DNA from: Ectocarpus siliculosus
Lineage: Eukaryota > Sar > Phaeophyceae > Ectocarpales > Ectocarpaceae
Assembly (NCBI GenBank): GCA_000310025.1
Contig: FN649737.1
Location: forward strand, 2,741,528 to 2,805,527
Direction of reading: 5' to 3'
DNA: 64,000 nucleotides
Of the stretch, positions 2,203 through 55,994 are shown in pieces. The first letter of the stretch is position 1. Each line of letters starts with the position of its first letter. The position numbers and the translations under genes were made by a program. The notes under the pieces are model-generated. The model did not search any database. It was not told where the DNA came from and worked only from the letters and a program-made list of their open reading frames with translations.

Positions 2203-2338
2203 TCCTGCATCTGTTTTGGGGGGGGGGGGGACTCATGGCCTTGCATGCTGTAATCGTTAAACCATTGACCTCCCATTCGGGGTGTGTGGGGGGGGAAACA
2301 ACCATGGGTGAAGAAACGAAACGTCTCCTGCATCTGTT
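2203..2338 (+). mobile_element. Short SINE-like insertion with 13-bp target-site duplication
   Basis: A roughly 110-bp segment beginning with a T/G run and a head resembling other copies in the window (actcatggccttgcatgctg, then gaccattgacct) is flanked by the same 13 bases, tcctgcatctgtt, at 2203-2215 and 2326-2338. A target-site duplication of this length is typical of LINE-machinery (target-primed) insertion. It interrupts the LINE remnant, so it is younger than the LINE. Confidence 0.6.
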
Positions 2339-11523: not shown

Positions 11524-13763
11524 TGGTGCCGACGTTCCCTTTCAGGCTAGCAAGATGCCGGATCGCCTCGTGCTGCCGGACAAAGCCGATGATGAACAGA
11601 CCCATCGCCACGGCGTGGCGGAGCTTCACCGACGTCGCTAGCGCCAGGACGATGTCCGAGGCGCCGCCGCTCGACCTCGACCAGGCCTCCTCAGCCAGGA
11701 GACCCAGCGGGGGAGCCTCCACAAGAACTGTGAAAACCATCAGCTGGTAGTGCACGACGCCGGCCTGCATCACAATTTACGGCGGCGGGGAGGGGTGTGG
11801 GTTTGAGCTAAATCCGGAGGGGGCGTCATAGGCGTCCGTCCTTTATCTGGAACTAAAAAAAAGGAACCCTTCGTGGAAGCCGGGAACAAACCAACATTTC
11901 CAGACAAGGAACAAAATATTGTTGAACTGCCGGGGGAGGATGAAACTTAAACCGGATAGGTGTGCCTCACGCGCGCCGTTATTGAGCAGCATACGTTGCA
12001 CGCCGGCGGCACGAGCGCGGCAAATGACGCCTTCGATTCGGTTTGGTGCATCAGTGCGGGCGATCTCCGCAGCCACAACGCCAAGAAACAGAGCCTGCCC
12101 TTGTTTTCAGAAGAGGGAGTTCGAAGTGACCGCCGCAAATACAGTGCTGGCTGGTTGCCCTTCTGGCGCTGGAAACAAGGTTTCAAAGCAAGGCAAGCAT
12201 CCGAAGCAAGGCATTAAAAATTGAAGGCGAAGTACCGCAGGAGGGGAGGGTAGAGAGAGGCTCTTCTGTGTGACCACGGGTTGGAATAAAGGGCACTAGT
12301 GCTGTGAGCGCTGATTTGAAGTGAAGAACAAAAAAAAAAAAAAAAAAAAGCATCCGCAACGACAAAGACCATGCACCCCGACAACAAAAAACGACAACAA
12401 ACAGCAACAAACACACACCGCGTATCCAGCGAGGGACATTCGCGATGATCCCCAGGAGGACACCATGACGCACTCCCACAGCCTCCGGGCCGCATGAAGG
12501 TTGAGGAGCAGCAGACAGAGGAGGCTCTCGACCCCTAGCTCTAGCACTTGATCACTCCTCCCAGCGACCCTTGAACAAACGCTCTTCCCCTAGATTCAGG
12601 CAGGGAGAAGTGGGTGGTGGTGAGAATGGTGGGAGTTTTGTGGCCGTGGGAGGCGGAATGCCGATATAGAATGCTGCCGAGCGGGTGGGTTGGAAACACC
12701 CAAATATCCCGAAAACCGTGGAGAAGGGAATCGGGTGTAACAGCGGGTACCCGAGAAAATATCTGCCTTGGGATACCTCGCAACCCAAGGGATGTGTGAC
12801 GTCGAGCCGAACGCCGTGCTTCTCGATTTCTCACCATGCCACGCGCGATGTACGGAGTGCATAGGACCTCATGCCGAGAGTAGCAAAACCGACATAGAGC
12901 AAAATCGTGAATGGATGACAAACCCTTTTGGTGGGCTTTTCTCACCCCTCAAAGTTCGCCCGCCAAACACATACGGGCCCCTAGTAGCGTTGTAGTAGTC
13001 CCAGAACCTGGTACCCGGTGGCGGGAACCCGGTTCTGACCCAGCCGTGGCACAACCCTACTTGCAAGACTGGGTGAAGGATTTCGAGACGCTCTTGCGGT
13101 ATCCTCGGGGTGTGAATTATGGTGGAACCTTACTGTGTTTTAAGGCGGCAAAGGGCAAGCTCGTTCCACAAGACTGGCGTGCCAGGTATTAGGTAGGTCC
13201 GGGAACAAGAGGAGACAACACCACAAAAGTCAGAAACGATCGAGAGTGGAGGATGTCTCTTCCACGTACAGCGCCCTCGACAAAAACCAACCGCAGCAAA
13301 CCGAACACGCCGAAGGGTTTCCACAACCTCTCCACCGCTCCTCTCAAATGGCATGTCTGGCTTGGCACAGCAAAGAACGCCGGGAGGGTGACCAGCTTCT
13401 GGTTCATCCTGGTGAACCGTAGCCTAGACCGGCGAAATCGCTCCTCCGTCCTGGCATTGTCGGGAAGCGAGGTCTAACGACTAGAGTACGGCATGCGCTT
13501 GCGTGAGTACACCCCCCTCCTCTCAAACGGGTTTCGCCTCTTGGTAGCTTCAATGGCGCACCTGGACGCTCCCTACGAAGAGAGAACCGCCGTATAAGAT
13601 CGTGTCGATGAAGACGAGCGCGCTCGACACAAGGCAGAAGAAGTAGAAGTGGGAGAACAAGCGCTTGGGCACCTCAACCTTGAGCCACCTCAGCGGAAAG
13701 CCAGCTTCCGAGGTCGTAGAAGCCCCGGGCCGGAGCTTGCCGTGCAGAAAAATCGAGTACAAC
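10458..13763 (-). CDS. SRD5A3: Polyprenol reductase / steroid 5-alpha-reductase-like protein (N-terminal exon not found)
   Basis: Endoplasmic-reticulum membrane enzyme of the SRD5A3/DFG10 family, which in characterised members is needed to convert polyprenol to dolichol for N-glycosylation. Four exons on the minus strand join in frame: 13763-13562, 12538-12419, 11764-11522 and 10718-10458 (stop TGA), about 275 codons. Family landmarks appear in order: HGKLRPG, VPKRLFSHFYFFCL, LLLLNLHAARRLWECV, a hydrophobic segment with GLFIIGFVRQHEAIRHL, GWFRYVSCPHYFAELLVY and the C-terminal WYQQKFEDYPRDRRRLIPGVW region. Relatives have about 40 more N-terminal residues with one membrane span. That first exon should lie between 13764 and the divergent gene at 14776, but I could not identify it. 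The donor of the third exon listed is the first GT of a (GT)n microsatellite. The assignment to SRD5A3 rather than SRD5A1/2 rests on the PKR.FSHFY motif. Confidence 0.85.
11395..11520. repeat. Dispersed repeat plus (CA)n microsatellite
   Basis: Bases 11395-11480 (cattggtcagccggttagcg and neighbours) are an inverted relative of the tandem units at 45765-46440 and of 60310-60405. They run directly into about 20 CA repeats (11482-11521). On the minus strand the microsatellite is GT repeat and supplies the splice donor of a polyprenol reductase exon ending at 11522. Confidence 0.6.
13395..13513 (-). repeat. SINE-like repeat fragment
   Basis: Related to the repeats at 16415, 18278 and 23461. It shares ccgtagcct(a/g)gaccggcgaaa, a diverged gttgtagggatgcgag-type segment and an end in gagtacacccccc. 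It lies just downstream of a polyprenol reductase exon on the genomic plus side, inside that gene's intron. Confidence 0.5.
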
Positions 13764-14775
13764 CTGCTTGCATGTTAGGTTTGGTCGCCAAGCCGGGGAC
13801 GTGCGGGTGCGGTGAGAACGCGGGAATACATGCAAATGGTGGGATGTTTTTTCCCCGGGGCTTTTGGCCGAGGCCCCCGACTGACGGGATGATGGGTGCG
13901 CTGGTGACCCCGGCTTCTCTGCTTAACTGCTGTGGCAGCTGACAATCCCATCAGTTTGCCGGGGTTCGGCTGGGATCAGGTATTCAATATATGTTCCTTG
14001 ATAGCAACGCTGTTGTTCGTCGCACGCAAGGCATCGATGCGAGCTCCAAAATTGTAGCCCCGCCAATGGGGCAAGTCAGGACAAAGCGTAGCTGTAACGA
14101 CACGCACACGGGCGGTATACTACTGCTTCTGTAGCGCAGTGCCGTTCTTGGAACAGGACTCCTAACCCACAACAATATCATACGTAGTCGCACTTGAGAT
14201 CCTCCACCCTCCACGCTACAGCAGTATACAGGTGCCAAACGCGGAGAGATTCTCGGTATCCTGAAATCGAAAAATGTGCGACATTTGGTTGGCGGCTAGA
14301 AGTTCTCTATGGGCGACCCAGCGCACCATCAGCGTGTCGGCTGTGGTGTAGGCACCCAACGTCACACCCGCCCGCTTCACACGCCCCGTTTGCAACACGT
14401 GAGGCAGCCGCAAAACATGCGAGTCGTCGCGAGCTGCTGCATACACTTTACCTAGGGGTTGCTGCGACAAAGGCCGTTAGAATTGTCAGGACCGCCCATC
14501 CTAGACGCTCAGCATTGCAAAGTTCCACCATCTCGGTTCTAGCCTACTGCGCACGAGGCAGTGTCCACCCTGCACTCACACAGCGCCAGCAACCGAGCCT
14601 CTAGGTTGTTTCGGAAAGCAGAAAGGCGGCACAACAAGTGACGGGGCTCTGTGTGTCATGTCAACTTGCCCCTCCCTGCGCGAACCATAATCCCTCTCGA
14701 ACTTGTAACTCCCTTTCCTGAACTCGCCGCTCGGCAGCTGTGGGAAAGACAACAGACAGACCACAAGCACGCACG

Positions 14776-17700
14776 ATGATGGCGGCGATGGTATCAGCCG
14801 CGCCTCGTAATGTGGGCGGGGAGATCCTCGTGCCACCAAGTGGCCAGGTGAAGCTCAAGGACAAAACAACCCCGGTGATTGAACAGGTGAGCTAAATCCA
14901 CCGCGTTTTGTCCGTGTGTGGTCGTATCTGTTGAACACCTTCTCCCCCCGTACCACGCGTTCTCCCGTCGCTATGCCCCCATTGCTTTGGGAAGGGCTCG
15001 AGAGTCCACAAGAGTGCTAGTGGGAGCATTGCAATTGCACTCATAGAGGTGTCGCTGCCGTAAACATTTCCTTTAAAGAAGTAGAGATCAAGCTGTGGTA
15101 TCCGGCTACCAGGTTGCGTAAGATGTCACACTCCCTGGACCGATTTTCAAAGCTCGATTACTCCACGACGAAGAGAATGCCGAAATCAAAGGATATGGTT
15201 TCGGAAAACGCTCGACGAGACGGTTCCAACGCCGCCATTGTCGGCACCGTCACTGCTTTTCCTGCCGAGAAATCGAGCTTCGAAAATCGGGCCAGGCGGT
15301 GTGATATCTATCATACGTTGCGTTCGGTATGTTTTTGGGCACATCGTTGTCTGAGAGGACAGCGATCGGCTAATTACTGCGGCGCGTCCTTTCAGGTGCT
15401 CCCCTGCCCGTTCACTTGCAGCTGTACACCCCCCGCACAAACAAGAGACCTTTTGCGCGGTACTATTTCATTTCTAAACGCTTCATTCCACCACGGAGGA
15501 CCTCTCCAGCATCCATTAACCCTTGCCCGGCTGGAGTGGCATTCGGATCAAGAAGACCCACAACATAGTCTAGCATCGTAGGGCGTTAACGACGACGGAT
15601 CATGGACCATTTTTTTTCACCGAACGCACTTTATAAAAAAAACAAATTAAAAAGGTGGCAAAGGAGCAGCTGGACCCCGAAGCTCGGCCATTGGTGTTCA
15701 CGCGAGGCAGGGCGGACTTGTCCCTCTTGAAGCTGTTGCTGTCGAGCAGGGGAGCTTCCATCTGGACGGACGAGGTGGGTGTCTTTCCCTCCCTGTGTCT
15801 TTGTTTTGCTTTTGTTCTATCAACGAATTCATTCCTGTCCATGGGAAAGAGTCCTGGCAATCTTTGTTCATAGTTGACATTCCCTTGTGTTTGTTGGTGA
15901 GGTACTGGATGGAGCCCGTGTCAGGGTTGGATGTGGGACAGGAGACAGATCTCGTATCGCGCGGGGGGCACTAGAAGGGTAGTCTTTTGGAGAAAGGCTT
16001 GCGCGAAGAGGCGGTGTTTTGTGTCCGCGCGCTGCTGCTCCAGAGGCCTAGTGGCCCTGCTGCTACCTCAGCAACGACCCGCGGGAAGTTTTAATGGCAA
16101 GCCAGCTAGCTGTTCCGGGTAAAGCTCTCGTTGCCTGCTTCCTGAATGTGTTGTCGTGTTTGTCATGGCTGTGGGGCGTTGCCTTAACACCAAACGGGTG
16201 TCACCTGGACTCACTTGGAATTACAGCAGTAGCGTCGGCGCCATATTGGTTTGACGTTTGTTGGAAACCTCTCCGACAAGTGAGGTGTGCGCATTGTAAA
16301 CATCCTTTTTTCATCGTGCTTGGAGTGAGCGCACGGCAGTCCCGAGTCCTGCCACCGCTGCCTCCTCCTTCCTCCCTCTCACCCCCCCCCATTCCACCTT
16401 TGGCAAAGTAGGAAGGAGCGATTGGCCATCGGTCCTGTTTGAAAAGTTCTCCATCCTCTCGTCGAAGACACGTGGTCAACAAGTTAGGCATGCAAGAGTA
16501 CGCCCTGCTCTGGTCCATCCTTTTGAACCGTAGCCTGGACCGGCGAAAACCCGGTATATCGTCCCGGCGTTGTAGGGATGCGAGCTTCAACGACTGCGGC
16601 ATGCATTTACATCAGTACATGCCTCTTTTCGTTTGCGTTTACTTTTTGCAGGAGCACGACCGGACCAACGTGAAGATGACACGCCCGGCGCACGACAAGT
16701 GGGGTATCTCGAAGATCGTCCTCGTCTTCTGCGACGACTTCCTCAAGAGGGTGTACACGTTCCCGTGGTACCACGAGCCGGAGTGGAAGGAGGTCAGAGG
16801 TGTAGCGTTCGTTTGGCCGTGTCTTTGCCTCCATGAGCAAGTAGCGCACGCGTGAATACAACAATCACACGTCTCGACGTCGCGGGGGGACTTTCACGCT
16901 TGGTGCGCTGGCTGTCACCGTCGCCTTCCTCAAGGTTTGACCCCCCCCCCCCCCCCCCCCCCCCTTTTTTTTTTTTTTTTTTTTTTCTCTCACNNNNNNN
17001 NNNNNNNNNNNNNNNNNNNNNNNNNNNNNNNNNNNNNNNNNNNNNNNNNNNNNNNNNNNNNNNNNNNNNNNNNNNNNNNNNNNNNNNNNNNNNTAGCGTT
17101 CGTTTGGCGGTGTTTTTGCCTCCAGGAGCAAGTAGCGCAGGGGGGAATACAACAATCACACGTTTTGAGGTCGGGGGGGGACTTTCACGCTGGGGGGGCT
17201 GGCTGTCCCCGTCCTCTTCCGTCAAGGTTTGCCCCCCCCCCCCCCCCCCGCCGCCTTTTTTTTTTTTTTTTTTTTTTGCGGTAACCATAATGGTGGTCGA
17301 GTAGATCATGTTGTGCGGGGTCGAGAAACCTCACTCCGCGCAACGGGGGATGATCGCACCACGTTGTGTTAAAATGGTCAAGCTTCCTCGAGGCAGTTAC
17401 ACAGTGCTTACAACTGTCTCTGGAAGTGAAAGCACCAGAAAATAAATTAAGTCATACGTAGCTGTCATCCGTACGCAAGGAAGTAAGCACAAGATGCCGA
17501 ACACCCTTAGCAGGATGCAGCTCACCCTTCATGCGACTCGCCAAATACCTCACGGCGCTTCGCGCTTGGTGAATGTGAGCCTGGTCCGGTGAGAACCCGG
17601 CGTGCTCCGTCCCGGCTTTGTAGGGATGGGAGGTCAATGGTCAAACGATTAGGCCATGCAAGATTAGGAGTACCCCCCCCCCCCCCCCGCCGCCACAGTA

Positions 17701-20700
17701 GCCTCCACGAGGACAATAATGTTGGTTTTTGTAGGGAGTTAGGTTAGGGATACGTGACCCCCCTCTCTATTTCATATACTTATAGTAAAATCCTCGCGAG
17801 GGCGGTCCTTTCTTTAACCGTTTGCTGCACACCCCCTTTTTCTTCAGGCCTCGCAGCCCGCCCTGGACGTGCTTGGCCCCCTACTTGCTGCGCTGCCTAC
17901 TACCCCCCCCTTCTGAAAAGTATGAAGTTTTAAATTTCCCCCCCCCCCCCCCCCATTTTCCCACCGTTTGTTGCACCCCCCTCTCCTCAGGCGTTGCAGC
18001 CGGTCTTGGACGTGCTTGGCATACCGGAGGAGAAAATGGTGCGCTGCCTGCTGGCTTCGATGCCCCCCGGGTGCGTCATACCCGTCCATCACGACACCGG
18101 GCACTGGGTGCAGCACACGCACCGGGTGCACGTCGCGGTCGTCACCGACGTGAGCGAGGTGAGGGAGAGCAAGCGGCATCGCACACACGCGGAGGCGCGC
18201 GTGTGACTACTTGGTGGCCTTTGTTTGTTCTTGCTTGCATCCCGCCGTACGATGCAGAACCTACGCATGAGTACACCCCCGCGCCTCGATTGGCGATCGG
18301 TCCTGTGGGAACAGTACTCCGTCCTCTCGAGGACGCGTGGTCAATGGTCTGACAGCCAAAACCCCTCCCCCTCTGTGGACCCAGCCTATCGGTCCGTCCC
18401 GGGGTTGTAGGGATGCGAGGCCAATGATGTAACGACGATGGCATGCGATTACATGAGCCCCCACCTCCCCCTGTGTGAATCGCCGTCGCCCCCCCTCCCC
18501 GAAGGTCGACTTTTTGGTTGGGCCTGACCCGAAACACATGAGGAAGGTGATGTTCGATGAGGGCAGGGTGGTGGAGTTCAACAACCAGGCCAAGCACGCC
18601 GTCACCAACCGGTGGTCCAGAAATCGCGTGCACCTCATCCTGGACTATGTCGACGTGAGTTTTTTTTTTTTTGTCGCCTGCTTGCAGATCTGCTGCTACA
18701 CGGTACCACCTGGTACAGCAGAGGTCCCTGTTTACGGCCGCTTTGGTCCATGGAACAGCATCGGCCTTGTACAACCGGGCACCGGGCACTATTCATGGCA
18801 CGAGACAACTTGAATATTTCATGTGTGCTTAGTAGCGATTCAACCGGCCTTAGACAGGGCAACCGGCCTTAAATGCGCGGCCTTAAACAGGGACCTCTAC
18901 TGTTATTGTTTTGGTTTCCTGCTGGCCACGATTCCACGACTCCCCTCGACCCTCCCCCCCCCCCCCCCTCGACAGGAATACCCCCTGGACTTCGTACGGC
19001 TCGCCCCGGGGTCCAAGCTTGTACAGACGCGAAGAAGCATCGACGTTGAGGGTCTGGTCACGAGACAAGGGCCGGACCCTGCCTTCGTAGTCCTAGGCGG
19101 ACAGAAGTGCGGGACGACCCTGCTTTACGAGTGCCTCAACCAGCACCCGCTCGTCGCGCGCGGTCGGCGCAGAGAGACGCACTTCTTCGACTGGGCTTGG
19201 CCGGCGAAGGGGGAGTCGCTGACGGTGGACCAGCTGCGAGAATCTTGTGAGTTTTCTTGTTGTTTTTGTTTTTTTTTCGTGGTGTGCGCAAGACGCAGGG
19301 ATTGTGTGTCTTCATTCTAGACCCGGACGAGTCAACTTGTCGCAGTCGGGTGGCGTTGTTGTCGTTGTTGTTGTTGCCATTGTTGTTATTGTTGTTGTTG
19401 TTGGTGGTGGTGGTGTTTGCTGTGTTCGCAAGACGAAAGGAATTATATTACTCCATACGAGAGACAGGCTTCAAGGGACCTAGTCCGAAGACGGTACGGT
19501 GTAATCTGCCCATGATTTACCTTGTGTTGTCGCCCGTCTTTTCGAGCGACTTTTCCCCCTCGCTTGTACCTCAAAAGCCGTTTCACCCGCGGAGGTTCAC
19601 GTCGTTTCCTTTTAGCCGGCAGTCAGTGTGTGAGTTCCCTCTTACATGGCTGCTTTCACTCCGTCTCTATGCCCGCCCCCCCCGCCCCCCTCTCTCTCTC
19701 CTCTGCCTTATCGGCCTTTCCGTCTGCACGTCTCTGCCTTTGTTTCTCTATCGCTTGTGGTGTCTTGCGGTCCATGGGTGACGTGTTACTCTCTCCCTGG
19801 TCCCCGCTTTTCCCTTCCGCTTCCTCTATCGTTCTCATGACCGCGTTCAGACATGGCGTTCTTCTACGCGGAAGAACTGAAATCCCATCCTTCCATCGTG
19901 ACTGGGGAGTCGACCCCGTCATATCTATTGCGCGGGTAAGACAGATGAGAGGCGGTTTTGGAACGAATTAATAGATGGCAATTTCGTTTCCTTCGATGTA
20001 TCCCACGTGATGCCGGTGTCGGCTACGCTGTTGTACCAAAACACCTACTTCCCAATTGGTTGTTATTTGTAGGTTTTTGTTTGGTGAGGTTCTTCTTGAT
20101 ATCCAAGGGTTCGCGCTATGTGGTGCGGGGATACTTTCGAATTCAGGTACAACGCTGTTGCCCTCCTCTCTATCCGCGTGGATGACGTCACAGCACATGG
20201 CCGCCAGATGCGGGGCACACTCAATGCCGAACACCATGATTTTCGCCCCGAATCTGCGTCAACAGTGTCCCGTCGGGCATATATGACGTATTAGCCGACC
20301 CTCTGATTGCCTTAATCTGGCTGCCTCCCCGCGGTTTTCTCCAAGTGTAAGCGTCTTTGGTTACGCACGCCACGTTGTTGTATGTTTTTCGGACTGTCTA
20401 CCCGACCCATTTCTTCGAAGACTTTTTTCCTGATATGAAGTTTAAGCTTGTCGCTTGCTACTATATTGATAGCCATGCCTCCACGGTGGGCCTCTCTCTC
20501 TCTATGTGTGAACGTTTTTCACAAAATCCTCAACAGCAAGCCCAAAATACTTTGCTCGTCCTGCCCGTCCCGTTCCCTTGCCTTCGGCGGCCCGGGGTGT
20601 GTGTGTGATTTACTACAGAGATCTGGTCATACCTCGATTGAAGAACGTCGCCGGGAAGACACGCCTCCTGGTGATGCTGAGGGACCCCGTGAAACGGGCG

Positions 20701-23700
20701 TACTCTCACTACCACATGGCGGTTGACCCAGAGGGCACCCCTGCGCAGCTGAGGAGTCGAGGTGCAGTTTTGGTCCCGATATATCGCGGTTCCGAGCAGC
20801 GCGCGGTTGCCGATATATATGTACATATAAGATTTGGTCACTTTTCATGCTTCGGCGTTTCTTTCTTTCGCGGCAGCGAGCCTATTATCGCAATTCCTTC
20901 TCAGCGGCACGCAGGAGGCTCGTCGGTACATTAACGCCCGCGCCCGGAGCTCGGTAGGCCTCCGTGACGCGTGTGGTTGACGGCCAAAGTTGCGAAAACT
21001 GGCTCAAAACCCCGGGGACGCGTTCCGCGCTGACAAAGCCTGGCGAACCAATTCTGAAACCTATCAAACCCATTTAACTACGACGGTTTGAAATATTTGC
21101 CTCTTGCTTCTCCACTTTCATTCGTACATTCATTCATTCATCCGATGATTCATGGCTGTGACTCTTCATGTCATCGCATTTTGTCCAACAGCAGTACCTA
21201 CGTTTACTACACTTCGCAGCGGGCCAAGTTTAGACAAGTCTGAGAGCGTGCATCCAGCCGCAGTGTTGAACATCCCATTTGTGGTGTTGTTTCGGCTTCA
21301 AATGCGGTTCCCATCGGAAACCTGCCATCATCAATCAAAGACATCATGGAAGTCTGAGTTTTCGCTGCCAAAATATTGTCCACTCGAGCTGGCTCCAATC
21401 AATGTAGAATATAACAACGTGCGCGATGTTTTGTGCGGAAATACCAGCGTTGTAAGACATACAGTCCCTCTTCGGGCAATGCGTATGTGGTCTTGCGCCA
21501 CCTGAGGGAGGGTAGACACCCGTCCCGAAGGGAGACCTTGTATATATATATATCGTGGGAAAAAATCCTTGACACAACAAACTAGCCTGCTACTCTGTTT
21601 TTTTTTTTTCTTGTGTGTCTTTGTGAGACCATTTTGGTTCGCAGGTGCGTGCGTCTTTTAGTCATTTTATTTGCTCTTGGTTTCTCCTCTCGATGACTAA
21701 GTAAGTTACTTTTCAGGGAAAATAGTTCCTTTGGCGAAACAACTTAGCCTGCTGTTTATTTACCATTCAGGGACCTTCCTCCAATAGCGCGTGTCCCGAA
21801 ATAACGTGGTGAAATCTGTATTTTTCTATTCCGCGGCATGTGGGGACCACTATTGTATGGGACAGGAGGGTGAGGATCACACTAGCTTGCGAGCAGGTTG
21901 TGGGGGAGATGTAGAGGAGATTGTGCCTCGCGATTGCCGGGGTTGGTCCTGAAACGTCCCCTCTCGGCAAAGTGTCTTGTTTTAGTATACGCCCATGTAT
22001 AAAATGACAGAAAAATTGTACCCGTCCGAAACAATTCCACCGTTGAAGGGGGCGCGTTGAAGTCTTTGCAGTGAACTCTAAAGGATTGCTGTCTTTTTTT
22101 TGTCATCTGTTTTTTTCGCAATATCGTGTTCGTTCATCTTTTCTGTTTTTTTTGTGAGGCGGGGGTGGCTTGAAGATAGAACGCATGGTTCTGATTGGAG
22201 TGCCGTCTTTCGATATACGACGAGAAAAAATTCATACAGTTCTTGTTTTTGTCGGTCAGGCGGAGGAGGCTGGACGAGCAAGACCTTTGAGCAGGTCGTC
22301 GAGGAGGAGAGAGCGGTGCTCGAGAAAGCCGGTGTCGGCCCCGCAACTTCCCCGGGGGACTTCGCAAGGGACTACCTCAGCACACGACCAAACGGCTACG
22401 GAGGGCACAGGTTAGTGCTTAAACACAAGAAATGGTGATTTTTCTGTTCTCTTACTGAAGACACATTATGCCCATCTCTTCCAGAAAAAACGAGTCCGTG
22501 GTAGAATAGCAATGAATTCGTAGTGTTGTCCGATGACCAACTTGTATTTCGACGGCTCCCCGAGCAGCAGTTCGCGATATTGTGGGTAACAGGCTCAATA
22601 CGCACACGACCCTACGGAGGTCACAGGTTAGTTGCTTTTTTTTGTTCTCTTGCTGAAGCACACCAAATTCATCTCTTCGACAGATCACAGTCAAGGTAGA
22701 TTAGCAATGACTTCGTAGTGTTGTACGGTGACCAACTTGTATTTCTACGGCTCCCCGAGCAGCAATTACCGATGTTGTGGGTAGCAGGCTCCGTAAGACA
22801 GTTTGGTGGCCATCGTTGAAAACTGGCTTGTCCATCCGGAGTATGTCGGCACAAAAGGGATTTGATTTGCCCGTCGTGTACACGACATACCCCCTCGGTG
22901 TGTGTTCCTTGATTCTGCTGCAAAGCTCACCTCCCAACCGGATCGCCTCCCTTCCCTTGCATCACAAGAACCGAGAAAGCCGTCAGGTGTTGTTTCCCTT
23001 TTTCTGTATGCAAGGCTCAAGGTGGTCCCCCATTCACTTGCAACCCAAGGATCGAAAAGCTCGTTTTGTGGTGTTTCACTCTGCCGCAACGCTCGCTTCC
23101 GAACGGCGCCCCTCTCGGTTGGGCCCCTCACGTTCGTCGGGACATTTTTAATCAATCACTACAACCCCCCGCGTGCTCCAACGCCACTCTTGCATATTCA
23201 GCCTGTTGGGGCGAGGCCTGTACGCGTTGCAGTTGCAGCCGTGGCTTGAGGCGTTCGGCCGGGATCAGATCAAGGTCCTATTCCTCGAGGAAGTGGTGAA
23301 GGTGAGCGAGAGGCCGGAGGGCTTGGGGCGTTATGTCCACTTGTTTTTGGACGTGTTTGTTTTTCGTGTTTGTGTTGGGGGGCACATGCATGCAGACCTT
23401 GCACCCACGCTCCCAGGCACCTAAAAGCGTTTATTGAAGGCCTGGGGCCATATATACAGGAATCTCCAAGGGGAGGGGGGCGTACTCGTATGTTTTGCAT
23501 GCCTTAGCGGTTAGACCATTGACCACGCGTCCTCGAGAGGACGGAGCATTGTTCCCACAGGACCGATCACCGATGGCCAATCTATCTTTCCTACTTTGCC
23601 AAAGGTGGCTCAGAAATGAATCTTCAAGGGGGGGGATGGAGGGGTACTCATAGTCGTGCATGCCGTAGCCGTTAGACCATTGACCTCGCATCCCTACAAA

Positions 23701-24314
23701 GCCGGGACGGAGCACGCCGGGTTCTCACCGGGCCAGGCTCTCACATCACCAAGCGCGAAGCGCCGTGAGGTATTCGGCAAGTCGCATGAAGGGTGCTCTG
23801 CATCCTGCTAAGGGTGTTCGGTATCTTGTGCTTACTTGCTTGCGTACGGATGACAGCTGTGTATGACTTAATCTTTTTTCTGGTGCTTTCACTTCCAGAG
23901 TCTCCAACGGGCGGGGTGTTGTTTGCGTGCAACACGCGTCAAATGTGAATTTATCACTCTGCATGCGTCTACAGCAATACGCTTGTTTTTTTTGTTCCAA
24001 CGTCCCTGCCCCCCCCCGTCCTTTTCTTGCTTAACCTCCCCAAAGTGAAACCGTCACGCGTTAACCATCTCCCCACGCCATCCGTCCCCTTTCTCTCTCT
24101 CCGCGAATAGTCCGAAGACTCGCTCCAAGAGGCCATGGACGGCGTTTTCGAGCATGTCGGGCTCCCCCCTTCGCCGGTGGAGGACAAAGCCCCAAAGAAC
24201 CACAGGGACTATCCCCCGATGGACGAAGGCGTACGCCGGCGGCTGCGAGACTTCTACGCTCCGTACGATGCCGCGCTACGGCAGCTGCTGAGGAGAGACT
24301 CGCTTCCGTGGTAG
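14776..24314 (+). CDS. Fusion protein: Asp/Asn beta-hydroxylase-like 2-oxoglutarate oxygenase plus PAPS-dependent sulfotransferase
   Basis: Eleven exons join without a frame break into 545 codons including the stop: 14776-14886, 15655-15774, 16652-16792, 17991-18149, 18505-18654, 18976-19246, 19851-19935, 20619-20761, 22260-22410, 23202-23301, 24111-24314. Residues about 78-227 form an aspartyl/asparaginyl beta-hydroxylase-type domain. The expected Fe(II) ligands are His157 and Asp159 (IPVHHDTGHW) and His208 (KHAVTN), with Arg218 (NRVHLILD) for 2-oxoglutarate. Residues about 228-544 are a sulfotransferase: the 5'-phosphosulfate loop GGQKCGTT at 268-275, GESTPSYL near 335, the 3'-phosphate motif RDPVKRAYSHY at 367-377, and the C-terminal RLRDFYAPYDAALRQLL region. 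No signal peptide or membrane anchor is evident in the chosen start MMAAMVSAAP. An upstream exon cannot be excluded. Substrate is unknown; sulfated polysaccharide is plausible for a brown alga but is inference. It is divergent from the polyprenol reductase gene, and introns contain SINE-like and other repeats. Confidence 0.87.
15186..15335 (+). repeat. Dispersed repeat, inverted relative of 57481-57597
   Basis: The segment with gagaaatcgagcttcgaaaa and tgatatctatcatacg matches, on the opposite strand, the sequence around 57481-57597 (aatcgggctttgaacatcg, tatgatatcttacg). It lies in intron 1 of the fusion gene. No coding capacity is recognised. Confidence 0.45.
16415..16625 (-). repeat. SINE-like repeat
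   Basis: Shares gattggccatcggtcctgt, ccgtagcctggaccggcgaa and gttgtagggatgcgag with the copies at 13395, 18278 and 23461. It lies directly upstream of exon 3 of the fusion gene. Confidence 0.5.
16797..17280. other. N gap flanked by two copies of the same sequence (probable assembly artefact)
   Basis: The 100-N gap (16994-17093) is flanked by near-duplicate 180-base stretches: 16801-16993 and 17094-17279. Both start tagcgttcgtttgg, pass through caagtagcgca, gaatacaacaatcacacg and gactttcacgct, and end in a C run followed by a T run. The right copy has extra Gs typical of poor reads. The gap probably separates two reads of one place rather than missing sequence. Confidence 0.7.
17262..17690 (-). 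mobile_element. SINE-like element, long form with poly(A) end
   Basis: Read on the minus strand it starts at a G run, has gtactcctaatcttgcatgg, a box matching an RNA polymerase III A-box (tggcctaatcg), a weak B-box-like gggttctcacc about 50 bases on, and ends in about 20 A residues after taccgc. A second full copy is at 34315-34735 and a 3'-truncated one on the plus strand at 23620-23900. It lies in intron 3 of the fusion gene. Confidence 0.6.
17821..17905 (+). repeat. Decayed duplicate of an exon boundary
   Basis: The sequence tttgctgcacaccccc, cttcag, gcctcgcagcccgccctggacgt, gcttgg resembles the acceptor and first 30 bases of exon 4 of the fusion gene (17975-18025, ctcctcag then gcgttgcagccggtcttggac). 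The reading frame fails soon after. It is a partial tandem duplication carrying a decoy splice acceptor. Confidence 0.6.
18278..18470 (-). repeat. SINE-like repeat
   Basis: Contains gattggcgatcggtcctgtg, tcctctcgaggacgcgtggt, gttgtagggatgcgaggcca and an end tacatgagccccc. It is related to the copies at 16415 and 23461. It lies in intron 4 of the fusion gene. Confidence 0.5.
20815..21545 (+). repeat. Unclassified ~0.73-kb dispersed element, inverted partner at 60423-61255
   Basis: In intron 8 of the fusion gene. It runs from tatgtacatataagatttgg to gtagacacccgtcccgaagg, and its reverse complement occurs at 60423-61255 in intron 3 of PiT copy C with small indels. No protein of its own is recognised and no terminal repeats are clear, so the class is unknown. 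Confidence 0.7.
22384..22800 (+). repeat. Tandem duplication (~207 bp) starting inside exon 9
   Basis: A unit beginning in the last bases of exon 9 of the fusion gene (acgaccaaacggctacgg, then the donor) is repeated once: 22384-22590 and 22591-22800. Shared landmarks are gtagtgttgt, gaccaacttgtattt and cggctccccgagcagca. The second copy has a decayed exon end (acgaccctacggaggtcac) followed by a second potential donor gttagt. Confidence 0.65.
23461..23590 (+). repeat. SINE-like repeat, short form
   Basis: Starts in a G run, then gcgtactcgtatgttttgca, ttagcggttagaccattgac and tcctcgagaggacggagc, and ends near cgatggccaatc. It lies in intron 10 of the fusion gene and is followed by the next related copy. 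Confidence 0.55.
23620..23900 (+). mobile_element. SINE-like element, 3'-truncated copy
   Basis: Matches the minus strand of 17262-17690 and 34315-34735 from the head (actcatagtcgtgcatgccg, gttagaccattgacctcgca) to ggtgctttcacttccagag, where the match stops. It lies in intron 10 of the fusion gene. Confidence 0.6.
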
Positions 24315-25261
24315 ACAGTTATCGCGTCGATATTTTTTATTTACTGGAGGTAGATGAAAAACGAGGGTCGTTGTACAGCATGTGGCCTTGGTTTGGTGCC
24401 TTGTTTCAATGGTTCACGATGCACGTGTGCCCTGTCCTGCGTTGGTTCTGGGCGCACTCGTTTTTCACTGCCGTGCAGCGGTAGATTTCAACGGCTCTCA
24501 ATCCCGAGATTCAGCAGGGCCTGTACAAACGGCGTGTATCATCGATCTGCCGTTGTTTCTGTTTGCCGGAACCATATTAATCTCGGAATTGACCCCGTTC
24601 CGAGGGTTTGATTCCGTCGTCACAGCGGAAGCTAGCATCCTATCGCGGTTTCGGGGATGGTTTTGAATGATGTCTTCGTCACGAAACGAAACTGATGAAA
24701 TGCGGCATTCACGCAAGGAAACCCGCGAAACCTCGTGGCTGCAACAGGCCGCCGGTCCGACTCGCTCCAGAGTGAAAAGTCTCGTAGTTTTGAAGAAAAC
24801 GAGGGTATCATTCCTCACGCGCGACCAGGAAAGGGGCTTCTGAACCCGTCTTGGTTAAGGCCTTGGAGGCAACCACCGCGCAGGAGGAAATGAATGTGGA
24901 GCGTGGGTGCGTGAACACGAAGAGAAAGGTGCAGACCCCGCTGCTGTTCTGTCTCGTCACCTCGGTGAAAATGAATGCACACGTCTCCATATAATCTGTG
25001 AATATATTGCTGGAGAAGCCAGGGTCGGAGAAATTCCTTTCGGTTAGGGTCGGATAACGAACAACTGGCAGTCGGCACGCTAGCCGTTGCGACGGACCGT
25101 TTGAAGATGCCCTCTTCGGACAACCGCCGGCAGCCAATCTATTGTATCGATATCTGATATCTCCAGATATCTGGATATTTATCTTCATACTACGCTGCAT
25201 ACTACCATGTCAGTTGAACCAGTATGGACATTGGAAGGTACTGAGTCGGTCTTAACGAAGA
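24315..25261. other. Intergenic region after the fusion gene, no gene seen
   Basis: 3' flank of the fusion gene. It contains only short open frames without motifs. A small nested palindrome (gatatctgatatctccagatatctggatat) lies near 25150-25180. Confidence 0.45.
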
Positions 25262-25854
25262 AAATCGGGATTTGAAAAAAGGTGAAATCATTTAACCGGA
25301 TCCCGATTTGGGTGAACAGCGTCCATAGTTGCGGGACCACGGTCTACTCGCATTCACGGCGCGTGCCCACCTACCCCCATCCACACGAACTCCATCCACC
25401 GCCGAGCACAGAGGAAAGAAAGAACACAAAAAGCCAACCCAAAGGGAGGGTGACTGCGCATCGTTGTTGCACGTGACTGGTCCCGAAAAAAAACGTGTGT
25501 GGGATGTGTTGGTCTGTGGGGCAATCTCTCGTGGGTTGTCTCTCGTGGGTTGTCAATCTCTCGTGGGTTGTCGAACTTCAAATGCACAGACGAATTAGCG
25601 GCTTTCCGTCGGACGAGGGTCAATTCAAAGTGTCACATCGTGTCAGTACCGCACAGAGGCCATGTACGCGTTTGGTGTGTGCTTGTCGGGAGCGATAGCT
25701 CCCCATGTGGTGTGGATACGTCATAACAGTACGTCACAACAGCAATCTGGCAGTTGGCAAGCGCCGGACCTCTCGGGTTGTTCGTGGTGGATTGCAGAGA
25801 TTCGTTACCATTTGGCAGATTTCCCGTTAAGACACACAGGCCATTTCTGTCCGG
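25262..25854 (+). repeat. 593-bp direct repeat, copy 1 (partner 28073-28617)
   Basis: From aaatcgggatttgaaaaaag to ggccatttctgtccgg. It is nearly identical to 28073-28617 apart from two extra ctctcgtgggttgtc units and a 20-base indel near the end. One copy lies upstream of PiT copy B and the other in its intron 3. No recognisable coding content. Confidence 0.85.
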
Positions 25855-26579
25855 ATTTGGGTAGACTAGATCCGACTCTTTTCTTTATCTGACGACCCTC
25901 AAAAGTTCCAAATCTTTCGTGACATCCACATAGCATACGCCTCATCGTCCGAGCGGAGACCGGGATGTTTTTTCATGTGAAGACAGCAACAACAGTTTTC
26001 CGAACAAACTGCTGTTTCAGAGATACTATTCGCGATTCCCCCGACTCGGAGTACGTTGGGAGTACTTTCTCGGGGACGTGGGACAACATTTTTGGTGAAA
26101 ATGACTGATCTGTCGATCCGGCGTACGGCATGAATCCATAGCCTATGGGCCCTACCCGAGGTATGCACAGATACGGCAGCAAGCAGTAGACTAGATAGAT
26201 AGGTAGACAGGAGCTGATCTGTGCTGCTTTTAATCTTCCCATTCCTGTAGCAAAATTCTACACGTAGACTGCTGCGTGCAGCAACCGGTAGCAAATATTT
26301 TCCCCCGGTCGTTCAAGATTCAGATATTATGTACATATTCAGATATTGTCGATGCTGCTGCTGAGAAGCATTGTTGGTGCTCTGCAGATGGGTTCGGCGT
26401 GATGCGGGACCATCTTGTGTGTGCATTCATTCTCAGCAGATATATTGCGCGTTCTCGCCTCATTGTGGTTGTGGTCGCGTGGACTCTCTTTGTGTTGTGT
26501 ATGCCGACTGCCTGTGCATGGTTGGTTGGTGATGTTGGATGTGGGGTTGCCGCGTTTACATGTACCAGGATATATTTTT
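25855..26579. other. Intergenic region upstream of PiT copy B
   Basis: No gene recognised. About 45 bases near 25903-25950 (aagttccaaatctttcgtga onward) recur at 26618-26666 in the 5' flank of PiT B, and the start of that motif recurs at 58490 upstream of PiT C. Confidence 0.4.
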
Positions 26580-29900: not shown

Positions 29901-32900
29901 CCTATATCTATGTTATTCCTTCTTGCGGGCGGAAAGTTATAATGCGCAGAATGGGACGCACTGCGTGTTGGGAGCGGAGCCGCATAACGAACGTGGTCAT
30001 TACTTCTTCAACTACACTCGGTTCATTTGAATGCAACGACAATGCGGGATTATGGCGTCCATTCACCCGACTGACCGCCCTGGAAGGTGGGGCCCCGCAT
30101 AAACCCAATTTCCTTAAGTAGACTTAACTGCAATTATGTCTGAAGCCTGAGACGCAAGAGTTCATTCGCCGACGTGGGCGTGCCACTCTCATGATCACAG
30201 CGCCCCTGTCGCAAGCTCTAGACCCCAAGGGCGGGCCGAGTTACAGCACCGTGAAGTGCGACTAGATCTCCTGCATCCGGGCGCGTCGACGGTAGGGACT
30301 GTCACTTCTTAAAACTTTCAGCTGGTTGGTCAAGATATTGTTGGAAAACGTCAACTCATTCAACCATGACCGACCACCAGCTGCCGACCACAGAGTTAGT
30401 CCCTGCTTTGTCCTGCTCCAAAGATTTTTTCCTCGATGTAAGCTTGCAACAGTAGTTAGTAGGGTTAGCGGTGGAGAGCGGACCCACCTGAATCCATCCG
30501 TAAGAAGTGCAACATTTTCTTTATTTTTCCAACATACACACAAAACACTAACAGCAGTAGGGTCTGCAACACAGAAGTGGTACGCTTTTGTTCGGACCAA
30601 AAAACTCAAAACCGTCACGATACATTATTATTCTGTAACTTTTATGTACAAAAAATTCAACTCAGGATACTGACTGATGATTGTACTGCTACATAATGCG
30701 GACCTGACCCGGCCACCAGTATTTTGTACTAAATAGCGCGCGAGCGAGCGAGCGAGTGTACTACACGCAACCTGGCACTAGCGGGTGATGATGGGGCAGC
30801 CAGTCATGGATGGATACGGTCACTCCGAGGATTAAATGAAAGTACGTGACGTTCAAATACTTTCCTTCGTTATGTCGCAATCAAAGTTGCTGCAAATGTA
30901 AGACCCAGAAAGAAATGCAGCCCACAGCAAAGTTGTTTCAACATTTACTGGAGACCTTTTGAATCATACACCCCGAATGTAAAACTACTCCTGGATGGAG
31001 TATATATTATATATTGTAACAGCAGTTGTTGTTGTTGTTGTTGTCGTTACATTAAAAACCGTTCCGATCTCTCTCTACCCAGTACCTTCGTATGTCCGTA
31101 CCGATCCAACACTCGACGCGGTCGATTCCCGTGGTCACAGGTTAACTTACTTACCCTAAAAAGGTACACTCAAATAGACTGGCCCCGAGGGGTTCCACAA
31201 GTCAAAAGAATACAACGACAGATATCCTGGAGTCCTCCACTCCCTCTGCGCGCCATGCACTCCCTCTGCGCGCCATGCGAGGTATCAACTGAGACTAGGA
31301 GTCACTATCACCGGCCGGAGAGAAAGAGGTACACCCCCTTGGTTCAATCTTGGTACTTCACATCGCAAGCAGAGACAAGGCCATCTGATACAGAAAAAGA
31401 GAGAAAGAGAGAAAAGAGAGAAAAAGAGAAAAATAAAAATAAAAAGGAAGAAGTAATAATATGTAAGGAAAGAGAAAATAAAACGAAAAATTATTATGCA
31501 AGCGCCGGGAAAAATGCAGGCTGCCCTTTGCCTGTAGTACATTTGCCAGCTTCGTGCCCTTGGTATGCTGTGCACAGCCTTCGCACGCACCACCCATATC
31601 CCTCAGCCTGACCCTGAAGGCGAGGGCGCCTGTGGCGCCCGAGCCTGGAGACCTTGTACTACATAATTTCATTCATTATATACCTGGGACTTAATTTTCA
31701 CACATTTTCCTCTCCCTTCCAGCATTATTTACAGAAATAATTTGCCTTGTTACCTACATTTATCTATTTCAGTGTACCTCTATCTATCTACTGTACAGAA
31801 AAAATCCTCTCCCTGCCTCTACTTTTCCTCTCCCGACCTATGTACTACAGAAAAAAAATTGAATGACATGTACATGTCGTTCACGTTGTACGCAGCATCC
31901 CATGCATTGAATCTCTTTGTCATACCACTTTCTTCTCAGAAATTCAGTGTCATCACAATCGAAACGCCGCTTTTCAATGCGGCACGTCACATGGTTACTT
32001 CGCCCGCCTCTCCCCCAACTCTTCATTCGGCCCCTTGGCTGCCGGAACAACTATTCAAACTGCGTATGGATAATAATAAAATACAAGTTACTGGTGTCGT
32101 AATAATACTATCATGGGGGGTGTTTGATGTAATCAATTGGCTTTCTTTAGGTTTGGGGAATGTGTTTGGTTTTTGGGCAGGTAATGTGGAGGCAAGACCA
32201 ATTATTCAGGGCGCAAACGCTGTTCGGACGACGCTCAGCGATTGTGTGCAAATATCACCAAGGCTGCAAGAATTGAACCTAGGGCGGGTCGACGCTCGTA
32301 CAGAGCGCTATCCCCTTGCCCACACACCTACGCTTCGTCATAGATGGTGGTGAAAAAATCCATTCTCAACAGCAAATACAACGAATGGCCCTGCCTGGTG
32401 CCAGGTGTCAGTCAGTGCAGCCCGGCTTCTGTATGATCAGCGGAATCAATCGTGTACGGAGGAACAGTTCTTCTACGAATCCTCTCACACTTGCCACTGC
32501 TCTGGCAAATTTAAGTATTCCATGCAATCTCAAGTAATTAAGCAATTTTCGGTTTTTACGAGACGATATATCTTCGTGCACGAAAAAACATTGCTCAAAC
32601 CAAAGGTGGAGTGCTTCCTGGACAACCCCGGGGTGCTGATGTACGGCATGATGTGCGTCGTCTACACGACCGGGATGTGGCTCCTGCTCGCGTCCTACCT
32701 CGCGCTACCCGTCTCCACCACCCACGCCACAATCGGCGCAATGATCGGAATGACCGTCGTCTACGGGGGTGCGGGGTGCGTTGTGTGGTTCCAGGAGTCC
32801 GACAGCTTTCCGTACGTCAAGGGAGTGGCTGCCATCGCAGTGTCCTGGGTCCTGTCTCCGATCTTCTCGGGAATTGTATCTCTCCTGGTGTTTCTGACGG

Positions 32901-35900
32901 TCCGCGCCTTCGTGCTCAGGTCTCCCAACGCCTTCGGCCGGTCCTTCTGGGTGTTCCCCATCTTGGTCATGGTCGCTATCACCGTCGATGGTGAGGCTTG
33001 AGGTGGATCTACAAAAATAATAAATCTCTCCCCACAAACGTTCAAGTACACGGGGCGCACGATGTCAGAATGTTGAAAAGAGTTGGAAACCTCGCGTGGT
33101 ATCGCGTGGTATCTGCATCAGTATGAGTAGGAAACCTTGGGATAGATTTTCACCGGTCGCCCCGACGCTTCGATCTGTTCTTTGGGAGCAGTCCCGACTG
33201 TCATCGTGGCCACTGGGTATGGTCGCGGTCATCATTGGAAGGAGTGGCTTAGCCTCCCCCCCCCCCTCTTCTCCACAGCCGGCCGTTTACCTTTCCGCCG
33301 AGGGAGAACGTTTTGTTGCGCTCGCTTGCCAGGGACCTGTGTCCGACAGATGACTCTTCAGAAAAGCAAGAAACCATCGCAAGTCGGTCTCCGGTTGAAG
33401 CGCATAGTCAAGAAAGTTCTCCTAGTTTTTGCAAACGTACATACATACGGTCCATGCACAATGAATTTGTTCCGTTCACGTTGTGCACAACTTTTTTCAG
33501 AATACGAACTGAACAAACCAGATAATATTCGCGATCGCCTCGTCGAACCACGTTAATAGATAGATGCAGGGTTTTTTCATGTGTGCCATTTTCGGCCAAA
33601 AAATGATGGGGTTAGGGGAGTCGTTTGCCACATTTTTCAACTCCTACGGTTGGATGTCTCCAAGGAGTCGATGGAAAACGGCCTTCCTGATCCAGATTAC
33701 GGTCAGTTCTCGCGAATTTTTTAGAATCACCAGCAATCGGGAAAACCCACAGGGCAAATTCCGAGAGCTGTTCAAGGCCGTTGAGATATCCACAAACGGT
33801 ATGGAATAAAGAGAAATTCCAGTTTTCTCAGGAGAGCAAGTCAACGAAAGTTGCGCCTGAAGTTGAGAGGGTCTTTGGATTACTATATAACTACCCCGAC
33901 CCCGAGGAAAATGCACGTATTGATGGGAGAATGTTGGGCATATTGATTGTTGTGCATGGACCACCGTGCGGGCTACCTAAATGGTTGTCGGCAATCTCGC
34001 CTTGAGGGGAATTGATCGGTCTATCTGCACTAGTCTCTTTCGTTGTACAACCTACGACGTCACAGCGGCAACGCCCTACCTCCTGTCCGGGGTACCTGCT
34101 GATGCCCCTCCCGCCCCCCCCCCGCCGTAGCGCAACGATGTTTGCCATCGGGGTTGGGTTTTCGTCGCTTGGCAACGACATTATAAAACAGGCCGCCCCC
34201 CCTGGTGTTTGCCATCGGGGTTGGGGTTTCGTCGCTTGGCAGCAATGTTGTAAAAACAAGCCGATCACTTCGTGAGCTCGGCAACCAGGTTAACCCTTCT
34301 TTTTTGCCTTTGGTGTTTTTTTTTGCGGTAACCATAATGGTGGTCGAGTAGATCATGTTGTGCGGGGTCGAGAACCCTCACTCCACGCAAAGGGGATAAT
34401 CGCACGTTGTGTTGAATTGGTCAAGCACCCTCGAGGCGGTTACACAGCGCTTACAACTGTCTCTGGAAGTGAAAGCACCAGAAAATAAATTAAGTCATAC
34501 GCAGCTGTCATCCATAAGCAAGGAAGTAAGCACAAGATGCCGAACACCCTTAGCAGGATGCAGCGCACCCTTCATGCGACTCGCCGAATACCTCACGGCG
34601 CTTCGTGCTTGGTGATGTGAGAGCCTGGTCCGGTGAGAACCCGGCGTGCTCCGTCTCGGCTTTGTTGGAATGCGAGGTCAATGGTTAACGACTACGGCAT
34701 GCACGACTATGAGTACACCCCCCCCCCCCCCCCCCCCCCAACCGCAACTCCCCCTTTAAAAAAGGTTTTCCTTTTTTCACAAGGGGCCGAAAAAAATTGC
34801 CCCCCCCAAAAACCGCGGTTTGGGCCCCCCCCGAAGGGGGGTTAGGGTGGGGGGGGGGATNNNNNNNNNNNNNNNNNNNNNNNNNNNNNNNNNNNNNNNN
34901 NNNNNNNNNNNNNNNNNNNNNNNNNNNNNNNNNNNNNNNNNNNNNNNNNNNNNNNNNNNNCGATCCGCATCTCCTCCTTCGACAAGTGTTCGTCTTTGTC
35001 AACAAGGGCACGAAGAGTATGCACCTCGACAAGACCAGCGTTCTGGCCTCGCTCGGATGGGGGTTAGGGCTGGGGGGTGGCATCGCTCTCGTTCTGGTAC
35101 CTACAGCGATTCCGCTCCTGAGGAGGAAAGTGTCGAAGTTCTACCGAGATGGCACGAGAAGAATCTTGCCGGTACGTCCACGGAGAGTCGTTCTCGTTCG
35201 CGTTGTGGTCCTACTCTGTTTGCAAGTGCAAAGAAGGGTGGGGCTATTTTCGTGGGTTGTCGCTGTGCTTGGTATCTTCGCTGTAGTTTTTTCCGTGTCT
35301 TGCGCGGTACATTGGCGACCCCATCCCTTTTTCTCAAGCCTTCTATTGTTCCCTTGAGTTTGTTTCAACGACGAAGTTGACGACGAAGGATGGGCGCTTC
35401 ACTTCTGTGGGGTATGGGGGGCAAGCCTCTAGTGGTTACCCTTTGCTGGCAGCTCCCGTTGACCCTGTACATTGCGCATACGAGGTGTCACCATGCTCTT
35501 GAAGTCAAGTACTACACGTTCGTTCGTGGTTGTCGAGCCCTGGAGTAAGAATGCGACTCTTGGCACACTGTGCCGTCGCCTCTATTTATGCTTCCGTTTT
35601 CAGAAAAATATCGCTTTATTTTGTTTTCTTTCGAATTGCTTCATTATTTCTTCGGTTTCTAGGCTACGTGTTGGGGAGAGAGACGCACGAAACGCTCATC
35701 GTCTCTCCGGCCGCGTTAGCTGCAAAGGCCGGCGTCAACTCTTACAAATCCATCTCTCTCCCCACAAATACTAGCCGGGGGACTACGACTGCAAACGCAG
35801 GAGTCCCAAAACTGACCAAGTCCTCAAATGGTACACACCATTCTACAACACCTGACTAGATACCGAATATTCCCGAACTTATGCCCCCACCTTCGAAAGA

Positions 35901-48427: not shown

Positions 48428-48752
48428 TGAAAGGTAAACTACGCGGGGTGCAGCAAGCACGTTCTGGACGTTACTTGGGGCACTGGGTAGTCGGCCGTGT
48501 TAGGCCGAGAGAGAGAGATTGAGAGAGAGTTGGAGAGAGAGTGGGAGAAGGAAACTTGATTGGAGAGAGACGGTGGTGGTGGTGGAGAGAGAGAGGAAGA
48601 AGTGAGCGCAGCACGCACGCAAGCTTCATCGCACCAACCACGCCAAAAGGGTCCCCGTGACCGCACCGATGGTACCCTGCAACACACGAAATTCCCAACA
48701 CGTATCCCCCTGGGATCCTCACGACCACGCACTGCTGCGAGTATATCTAACA
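48428..48752 (-). repeat. Copia LTR (left; 3' LTR in element orientation)
   Basis: 325 bp with TG...CA ends on either strand (tgaaaggtaa ... atctaaca). It contains a GA-rich stretch near 48510-48600. It differs from the right LTR at the accacgcact versus accaggtact site. Confidence 0.9.
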
Positions 48753-48753
48753 T

Positions 48754-55899: not shown

Positions 55900-55994
55900 G
55901 ATGTTTGGTGTTGTGGGAGTCTACCGATTGCGCGTGACTGCACAACCCCCGGATGGCTACGCCCGCGCGCAGATACCGTGATATCGCACTAGTG

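Follow-up and report, generated by a model that had tools for sequence, protein, structure and literature searches.

A predicted oxygenase-sulfotransferase gene in Ectocarpus siliculosus and its bacterial counterparts

Does a gene model of the brown alga Ectocarpus siliculosus that combines two enzymatic halves describe a single protein, and if so, what could this protein do? The model lies at positions 14776-24314 (+) of a 64,000-nucleotide stretch of contig FN649737.1 (the whole stretch is referred to as the window) and joins a small N-terminal oxygenase domain of the aspartyl/asparaginyl beta-hydroxylase-like family PF05118 to a C-terminal sulfotransferase of the type that uses 3′-phosphoadenosine-5′-phosphosulfate (PAPS). 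We found that the model is continuous, that both domains and their catalytic motifs are present, that no second copy was detected and that the pairing recurs in bacteria. On this basis, we hold, with about even confidence, that one gene encodes one soluble two-domain enzyme, which would hydroxylate an amino-acid- or peptide-like substrate and sulfate the same molecule or a pathway partner.

The gene model and the junction between its halves

The eleven exons could all be reconstructed from the window sequence and join in phase, as a preliminary description of this DNA had claimed, and all ten introns are of the GT-AG type. The joined coding sequence comprises 1644 nt with the stop, and the remaining two frames carry 21 and 8 stops. 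The predicted protein is 544 residues long with one of the two in-phase exon 4 donors and 547 residues long with the other. Residue numbering follows the 547-residue form, where H211 and R221 correspond to His208 and Arg218 of the 544-residue form. The features of the gene, all on the + strand, are as follows.

Exon 1: 14776-14886, +; start ATG at 14776; residues 1-37
Exon 2: 15655-15774, +; residues 38-77; the oxygenase half begins
Exon 3: 16652-16792, +; residues 78-124
Exon 4: 17991-18158, +; residues 125-180; putative iron ligands H157 and D159; alternative in-phase donor at 18150
Exon 5: 18505-18654, +; residues 181-230; putative iron ligand H211 and 2-oxoglutarate Arg R221; end of PF05118
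Intron 5, between the halves: 18655-18975, +; 321 bases, GT-AG, phase 0
Exon 6: 18976-19246, +; linker, then GGQKCGTT (271-278) and E297 of RETHFF
Exon 7: 19851-19935, +
Exon 8: 20619-20761, +; 3′-phosphate motif RDPVKRAYSHY (370-380)
Exon 9: 22260-22410, +
Exon 10: 23202-23301, +
Exon 11: 24111-24314, +; stop TAG at 24312-24314

At the junction, exon 5 and exon 6 meet in phase 0 across intron 5, which has a GTGAGT donor and is the shortest of the ten introns. Upstream, the frame of exon 6 stays open as far as 18814, and there is no ATG within 18814-18975; past the junction, the first Met is residue 322, which lies downstream of the PAPS loop. Since no in-frame ATG precedes this loop, the sulfotransferase half is hardly a separate gene, and the earlier statement that no stop, start or long intron lies between the halves was borne out. 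The GC content of third codon positions is high on either side of the junction (0.84 in exon 5 and 0.77 in exon 6). Given the missing ATG, the GTGAGT donor, the phase 0 junction and the short intron, we consider it highly improbable that the first gene model merged two neighbouring genes, even though a cryptic first exon of the second half, ending within intron 5 at 18824, is possible. Only two such exons can be drawn, both short, with starts at 18750 and 18795, and both end at the weak donor GTGCTT. A single presumed transcript would carry both halves.

The length of 544 residues given in the preliminary description applies only with the exon 4 donor GTGAGC at 18150, and the donor GTGAGG at 18159, nine bases away, leads to 547 residues. 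The two forms differ by three residues inside the oxygenase core. A model of 14 relatives, built without the alga, gave 73.0 bits to the 544-residue form and 71.8 bits to the 547-residue form, a slight edge to the former; since both scores are nearly equal, neither donor is preferred. An impression that the 547-residue form matches the relatives better was not borne out by these scores.

An assembly gap of 100 N (16994-17093) sits in intron 3 and affects no exon. It is flanked by a 184-base repeat with 86% identity (16803-16986 and 17094-17277), a near-duplicate that is probably an assembly artefact. In addition, the beginning of exon 4 has a degenerate, incomplete duplicate at 17833-17877 (80% identity over 45 bases). 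This duplicate carries an acceptor of its own and lies 143 bases 5′ of the real one; a transcript spliced there would run into a stop at 17914, after 22 codons.

Catalytic residues and fold of the two halves

The PF05118 domain was matched at residues 139-229 with 30.2 bits (Pfam cut-off 22.6), and the first half of the algal protein scored 72-73 bits with the model of the 14 relatives, which are of bacterial and phage origin. H157, D159, H211 and R221 lie in columns that are invariant across seven aligned rows, and the 14 relatives likewise show no variation in these motif residues. We take the HxD...H residues to be iron ligands and the Arg to bind 2-oxoglutarate, a set whose presence had been noted in the preliminary description, there with His208 and Arg218, and which is indeed complete.

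A structure was predicted for the bacterial relative L042, which is 37% identical to the algal oxygenase half over the best segment, together with 13 other rows (mean predicted local distance difference test score 84.9). Its top Foldseek matches were L-proline cis-4-hydroxylase (4p7w, the best match, 22% identical to L042), proline 3-hydroxylase (1e5r), a nucleoside-antibiotic hydroxylase and AspH, and VIA-align gave Z scores of 16.6 to 14.5 for the hydroxylase/AspH group and of no more than 13.5 from AlkB onwards. This predicted fold bears directly on the relative and only indirectly on the algal half. AspH belongs to the same Pfam family as the algal half and has the fold predicted for L042, but it differs in carrying a TPR domain beside its oxygenase, whereas the algal protein carries HxD and gave no TPR match in a Pfam scan at E values up to 1. 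AspH lacks the Asp iron ligand, and AspH proper acts on EGF-like domains.

In the second half, PF00685 was matched at residues 265-480 (25.4 bits, cut-off 22), 35 residues after the PF05118 domain, and PF13469 also reached 25.4 bits, just short of its cut-off of 27. The PAPS motifs are GGQKCGTT at 271-278 (5′-phosphosulfate loop) and RDPVKRAYSHY at 370-380 (3′-phosphate), together with the acidic residue E297. The nearest solved structures are 3rnl and heparan sulfate 3-O-sulfotransferases (1t8t and others), which share the PAPS motifs and ExHFF with the algal half; in the alignments with 3rnl and 1t8t, GGQKCGTT, E297 of ETHFF and RDPVKRAYSHY are all paired with counterparts, which confirms the earlier statement that both PAPS-binding motifs are present. 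The main match to these structures spans roughly the first 120 residues of the domain.

Heparan sulfate 3-O-sulfotransferases are Golgi enzymes, and Golgi glycan sulfotransferases are membrane proteins. A 19-residue hydropathy scan of the algal model peaks at a mean of 1.0 and contains no membrane-like segment; as this peak is too low for a membrane anchor, the protein is predicted to be soluble, and a Golgi glycan enzyme is disfavoured, provided that the start of the model is right.

Both halves are presumably active. That one of them is catalytically dead and serves as a binding or regulatory domain seems quite unlikely: the modest Pfam scores of the two domains and the long oxygenase branch in the tree described below would fit such a loss, but the protein retains the four iron and 2-oxoglutarate residues as well as the acidic residue and the two PAPS motifs. 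In the two-domain enzyme that we favour, the N-terminal Fe(II)/2-oxoglutarate oxygenase would hydroxylate a carbon atom of a substrate that resembles an amino acid or a peptide. The C-terminal sulfotransferase would act on this same molecule, most simply at the hydroxyl just formed, or on a pathway partner that offers another hydroxyl. We infer that both steps act on one molecule, in which case hydroxylation would presumably come first.

Occurrence of the pairing in the alga, in bacteria and on mobile elements

Searches of the alga's own genome covered 189 Mb in 492 contigs. Profile matches outside the window numbered 13 for PF05118, 21 for PF00685 and 7 for PF13469, with no PF05118 place within 0.3 Mb of a sulfotransferase place on the same contig. 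Because all three profiles missed the two-domain gene of the window itself, this search is no proof against a second fusion. Protein queries retrieved no second copy, only the gene's own exons, with the best candidates scored in an assembly that contains gaps; besides these exons, they gave two sulfotransferase fragments (E 0.18 and 0.75).

Among Pseudomonadota, PF05118 was sought in 398 genomes and matched in 102. Eight bacterial proteins (L044-L047 and L100-L103), chosen for long frames or a match to the fused model, carry an N-terminal oxygenase and a C-terminal sulfotransferase, with both domains above the Pfam cut-offs; L046 and L047 are close kin. Three of them (L045, L046 and L047) were among the first seven places fetched for long or odd frames, where L050 has the pair as neighbours. 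A scan of genome contigs gave six loci, one of which contains the fourth fusion, L044. The algal sulfotransferase as a query had found no match in the flanks of these six loci, a test that was too narrow, since a bacterial-type model later found the fused protein in L044. The other four (L100-L103) were retrieved because they match the fused model over its full length; such matches were present in 2/385 genomes of one class-level draw (G026, G471) and in 5/369 genomes of a second one (G037, G875, G983, G992, G786), where the G786 match consists of two pieces in one frame and G983 is known from the model match alone. The frequency is about 1% of the sampled Pseudomonadota genomes. The coupling, called unusual in the preliminary description, is thus not unique, as the same domain order occurs in these eight proteins.

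These PF05118-PF13469 fusions (model A4), for which no name was found, resemble the algal protein in combining the two domains in the same order in one polypeptide, and HxD...H...R is invariant in four aligned bacterial fused proteins. They differ from it in several respects. The spacer between the Pfam domains is 162-196 residues long in the bacterial fusions and 35 in the alga, their PAPS loop is PRSGST or PRSGSS instead of GGQKCGTT, and Sulfotransfer_3 scores far above Sulfotransfer_1. In its short spacer and non-PRSGS loop, the algal protein departs from the bacterial fusion family. In two genomes, a small stand-alone PF05118 frame adjoins or overlaps the fused gene on the opposite strand (L044, 4701-5342 + and 5457-7418 -; L103, 6996-7883 + and 5289-7370 -).

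The two domains also occur as neighbouring genes. Around 32 low-scoring PF05118 places (68.8 bits or less) among the matches listed, a stretch of about 4 kb was read at each: three were fused and ten had a sulfotransferase gene in the same stretch (L050, L057, L058, L059, L060, L062, L066, L067, L070 and L072). This total of 13/32 among the matches listed, obtained with models built from positive loci, compares with 2/23 (L090 and L091) in high-scoring control places picked by hand (Fisher p 0.013). Independent Pfam support over the cut-off was obtained for 10 of the 13 paired loci (three fused and seven neighbours); L057 and L060 reached 25.9 and 22.4, both under 27, and L062 had no match. 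At the Pfam level, control L090 reached 26.9 against the cut-off of 27 and L091 had no match. Among the 32 places, a model built from the algal and fused oxygenases matched 20 at E 1e-15 or better; pairing was found in 13 of these 20 and in 0/12 of the rest, although this grouping is partly circular. In seven of the ten neighbour cases, the sulfotransferase gene is on the same strand as the oxygenase gene, abutting or overlapping it; L058 is convergent, and L059 and L072 are divergent.

As the pairing recurs both as fusions and as neighbouring genes, an argument of the Rosetta-stone type suggests that the oxygenase and sulfotransferase reactions share a pathway, which supports the shared pathway proposed in the preliminary description. 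The frequent separation of the bacterial pair into neighbouring genes is what one would expect of one pathway rather than of one substrate, and so fits an alternative in which both domains work on different molecules and the fusion serves co-expression or localisation; we consider this somewhat unlikely, given that a fusion in the same order is present in both the alga and Pseudomonadota.

In searches of viral contigs, the whole algal protein had no match, the oxygenase alignment gave 30 loci and the sulfotransferase alignment gave two. Plasmid records matching the algal protein numbered 33; among the 30 listed, all matches start at residue 221 or later and none covers the oxygenase. Used alone, the oxygenase half retrieved one plasmid record and one phage record. 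In PHROGs, its matches were phrog_274, which bears the name DNA endonuclease V (E 2.4e-4), and phrog_32420 (E 0.028). Neither algal half had a match in NCBIfam, and Rfam had none over 13000-26000 of the window.

Substrate leads and origin of the fusion

The neighbourhoods of four fused genes (L100-L103) were read at 12-13 kb. In L101 (G992:C3:368500-381000), the genes around the fused gene include a lasso-cyclase-like Asn synthase (203.8 bits, short of the 525 that NCBIfam sets as its cut-off), PqqD (59.1 bits, over 23.4) and an HPr-kinase-like gene below the cut-offs. Another sulfotransferase at this locus reaches 90.4 bits (cut-off 22), and a candidate JmjC-type oxygenase stays at 18.9 bits, short of its cut-off of 22. 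Because the fused gene sits together with PqqD, the lasso-cyclase-like Asn synthase and the HPr-kinase-like gene, a peptide substrate is suggested, and the gene content of this locus suggests a peptide-modifying cluster. A short reverse-strand frame in L101 is a candidate precursor, judged by eye. In a review, a sulfotransferase gene is mentioned for lasso clusters, and CanE is described as a 2-oxoglutarate hydroxylase acting on the linear lasso precursor (PMC8498205).

Several results weigh against a single enzyme with a peptide-like substrate and two coupled steps. Only L101 of the four fused neighbourhoods resembles a peptide cluster, and L100, L102 and L103 each hold a TPR-sulfotransferase gene near the fused gene. 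Among four inspected plasmid sulfotransferases close to the algal half, three lie among glycosyltransferase genes (the fourth is unannotated), which is as good a lead to glycans as to peptides. The fetched stretches of the 30 phage-contig oxygenase loci contained no sulfotransferase. The bacterial proteins most closely related to the algal oxygenase (L002/L076, L063 and L056 by the tree; L039, L040 and L042 by BLAST) are all stand-alone, with no sulfotransferase in the stretch fetched for each. To these points are added the very long branch of the algal oxygenase (2.39) and the way in which the models for the adjacency counts were built. The substrate leads disagree, with a peptide context in L101 and a glycan context around the plasmid sulfotransferases. 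Within 13 kb, L100 also contains an AMP-binding gene, and L103 contains a TonB receptor gene and a TPR-type PF05118 gene.

In a rival proposal, the protein would be a carbohydrate (fucan) sulfotransferase to which an oxygenase is attached in an accessory role. The hydropathy scan, with no hydrophobic segment and hence unlike Golgi membrane sulfotransferases, makes this very unlikely, although an unseen upstream exon could alter this result. In its favour, the second half resembles heparan sulfate 3-O-sulfotransferases as well as bacterial sulfotransferases located among glycosyltransferase and polysaccharide export genes, and the brown alga Nemacystus decipiens is reported to have a gene fusion of a sulfotransferase with an alpha/beta hydrolase (PMC6418280). 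The latter is likewise a brown-algal sulfotransferase fused to another enzyme, but its partner is a hydrolase and not an oxygenase; reverse transcription PCR support is given for it, and the authors say that the mRNA needs further examination (PMC6418280).

With regard to the origin of the algal gene, the algal row of a tree of 40 oxygenase domains falls into a group with bacterial oxygenases that stand alone (99/98) and apart from the clades of the fused and the adjacent ones. This placement is unsure because of the very long branch, and forcing the algal row into the fused clade was not rejected (approximately unbiased test, p 0.092). With a model containing the algal sulfotransferase, no fused sulfotransferase was found at E 1e-3, and L047 was reached only at E 0.005 with filters off. 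Since the spacer length, the sulfotransferase subfamily and the type of PAPS loop differ between alga and bacteria, a comparison of these sequences favours, but does not prove, an independent fusion in the alga and in Pseudomonadota. It is tempting to propose that a first hydroxylation and a subsequent sulfation at the hydroxyl so formed make up a two-step modification of peptides or amino acids that has gone unrecognised and is carried out in line by a single protein, and that an obligate coupling of the steps caused the domains to be fused independently in both groups; we advance this tentatively, as a proposal that is itself rather unlikely.

Searches of open-access papers gave no report of a 2-oxoglutarate oxygenase that is constantly paired with a PAPS sulfotransferase. 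In three papers on algal sulfotransferases, the word 'hydroxylase' is absent from the main text (PMC7291590, PMC11468063, PMC7554865), and the accessible part of a paper on domain architectures shows only the TPR-sulfotransferase combination (PMC554113). A new aryl sulfotransferase of Ectocarpus has been reported, and nothing in the available text links that enzyme to the two-domain gene (PMC6337836). Both kinds of enzyme are known, and as bacterial fused proteins were found, the pairing already exists in genomes and the algal protein is therefore a variant of it; what is new in the alga is a spacer and a sulfotransferase type that differ from those of the bacterial fusions. The bacterial fused and paired genes provide a short list for working out the chemistry, which could then be carried over to the alga.

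Elsewhere in the window, Copia-type retroelement pieces (integrase, RVT_2 and gag) lie at 48751-51304 (+) and 54067-55920 (-), and an RVT_1 piece just under the cut-off lies at 1297-2232 (-). A 394-residue open frame at 36467-37648 (-) has no Pfam match at E 0.001 and looks tyrosine-recombinase-like by eye. Three fragments of PHO4 phosphate transporters over the Pfam cut-off, at 3118-3732 (-), 32354-32998 (+) and 62275-62973 (+), are related sequences scattered around the two-domain gene.

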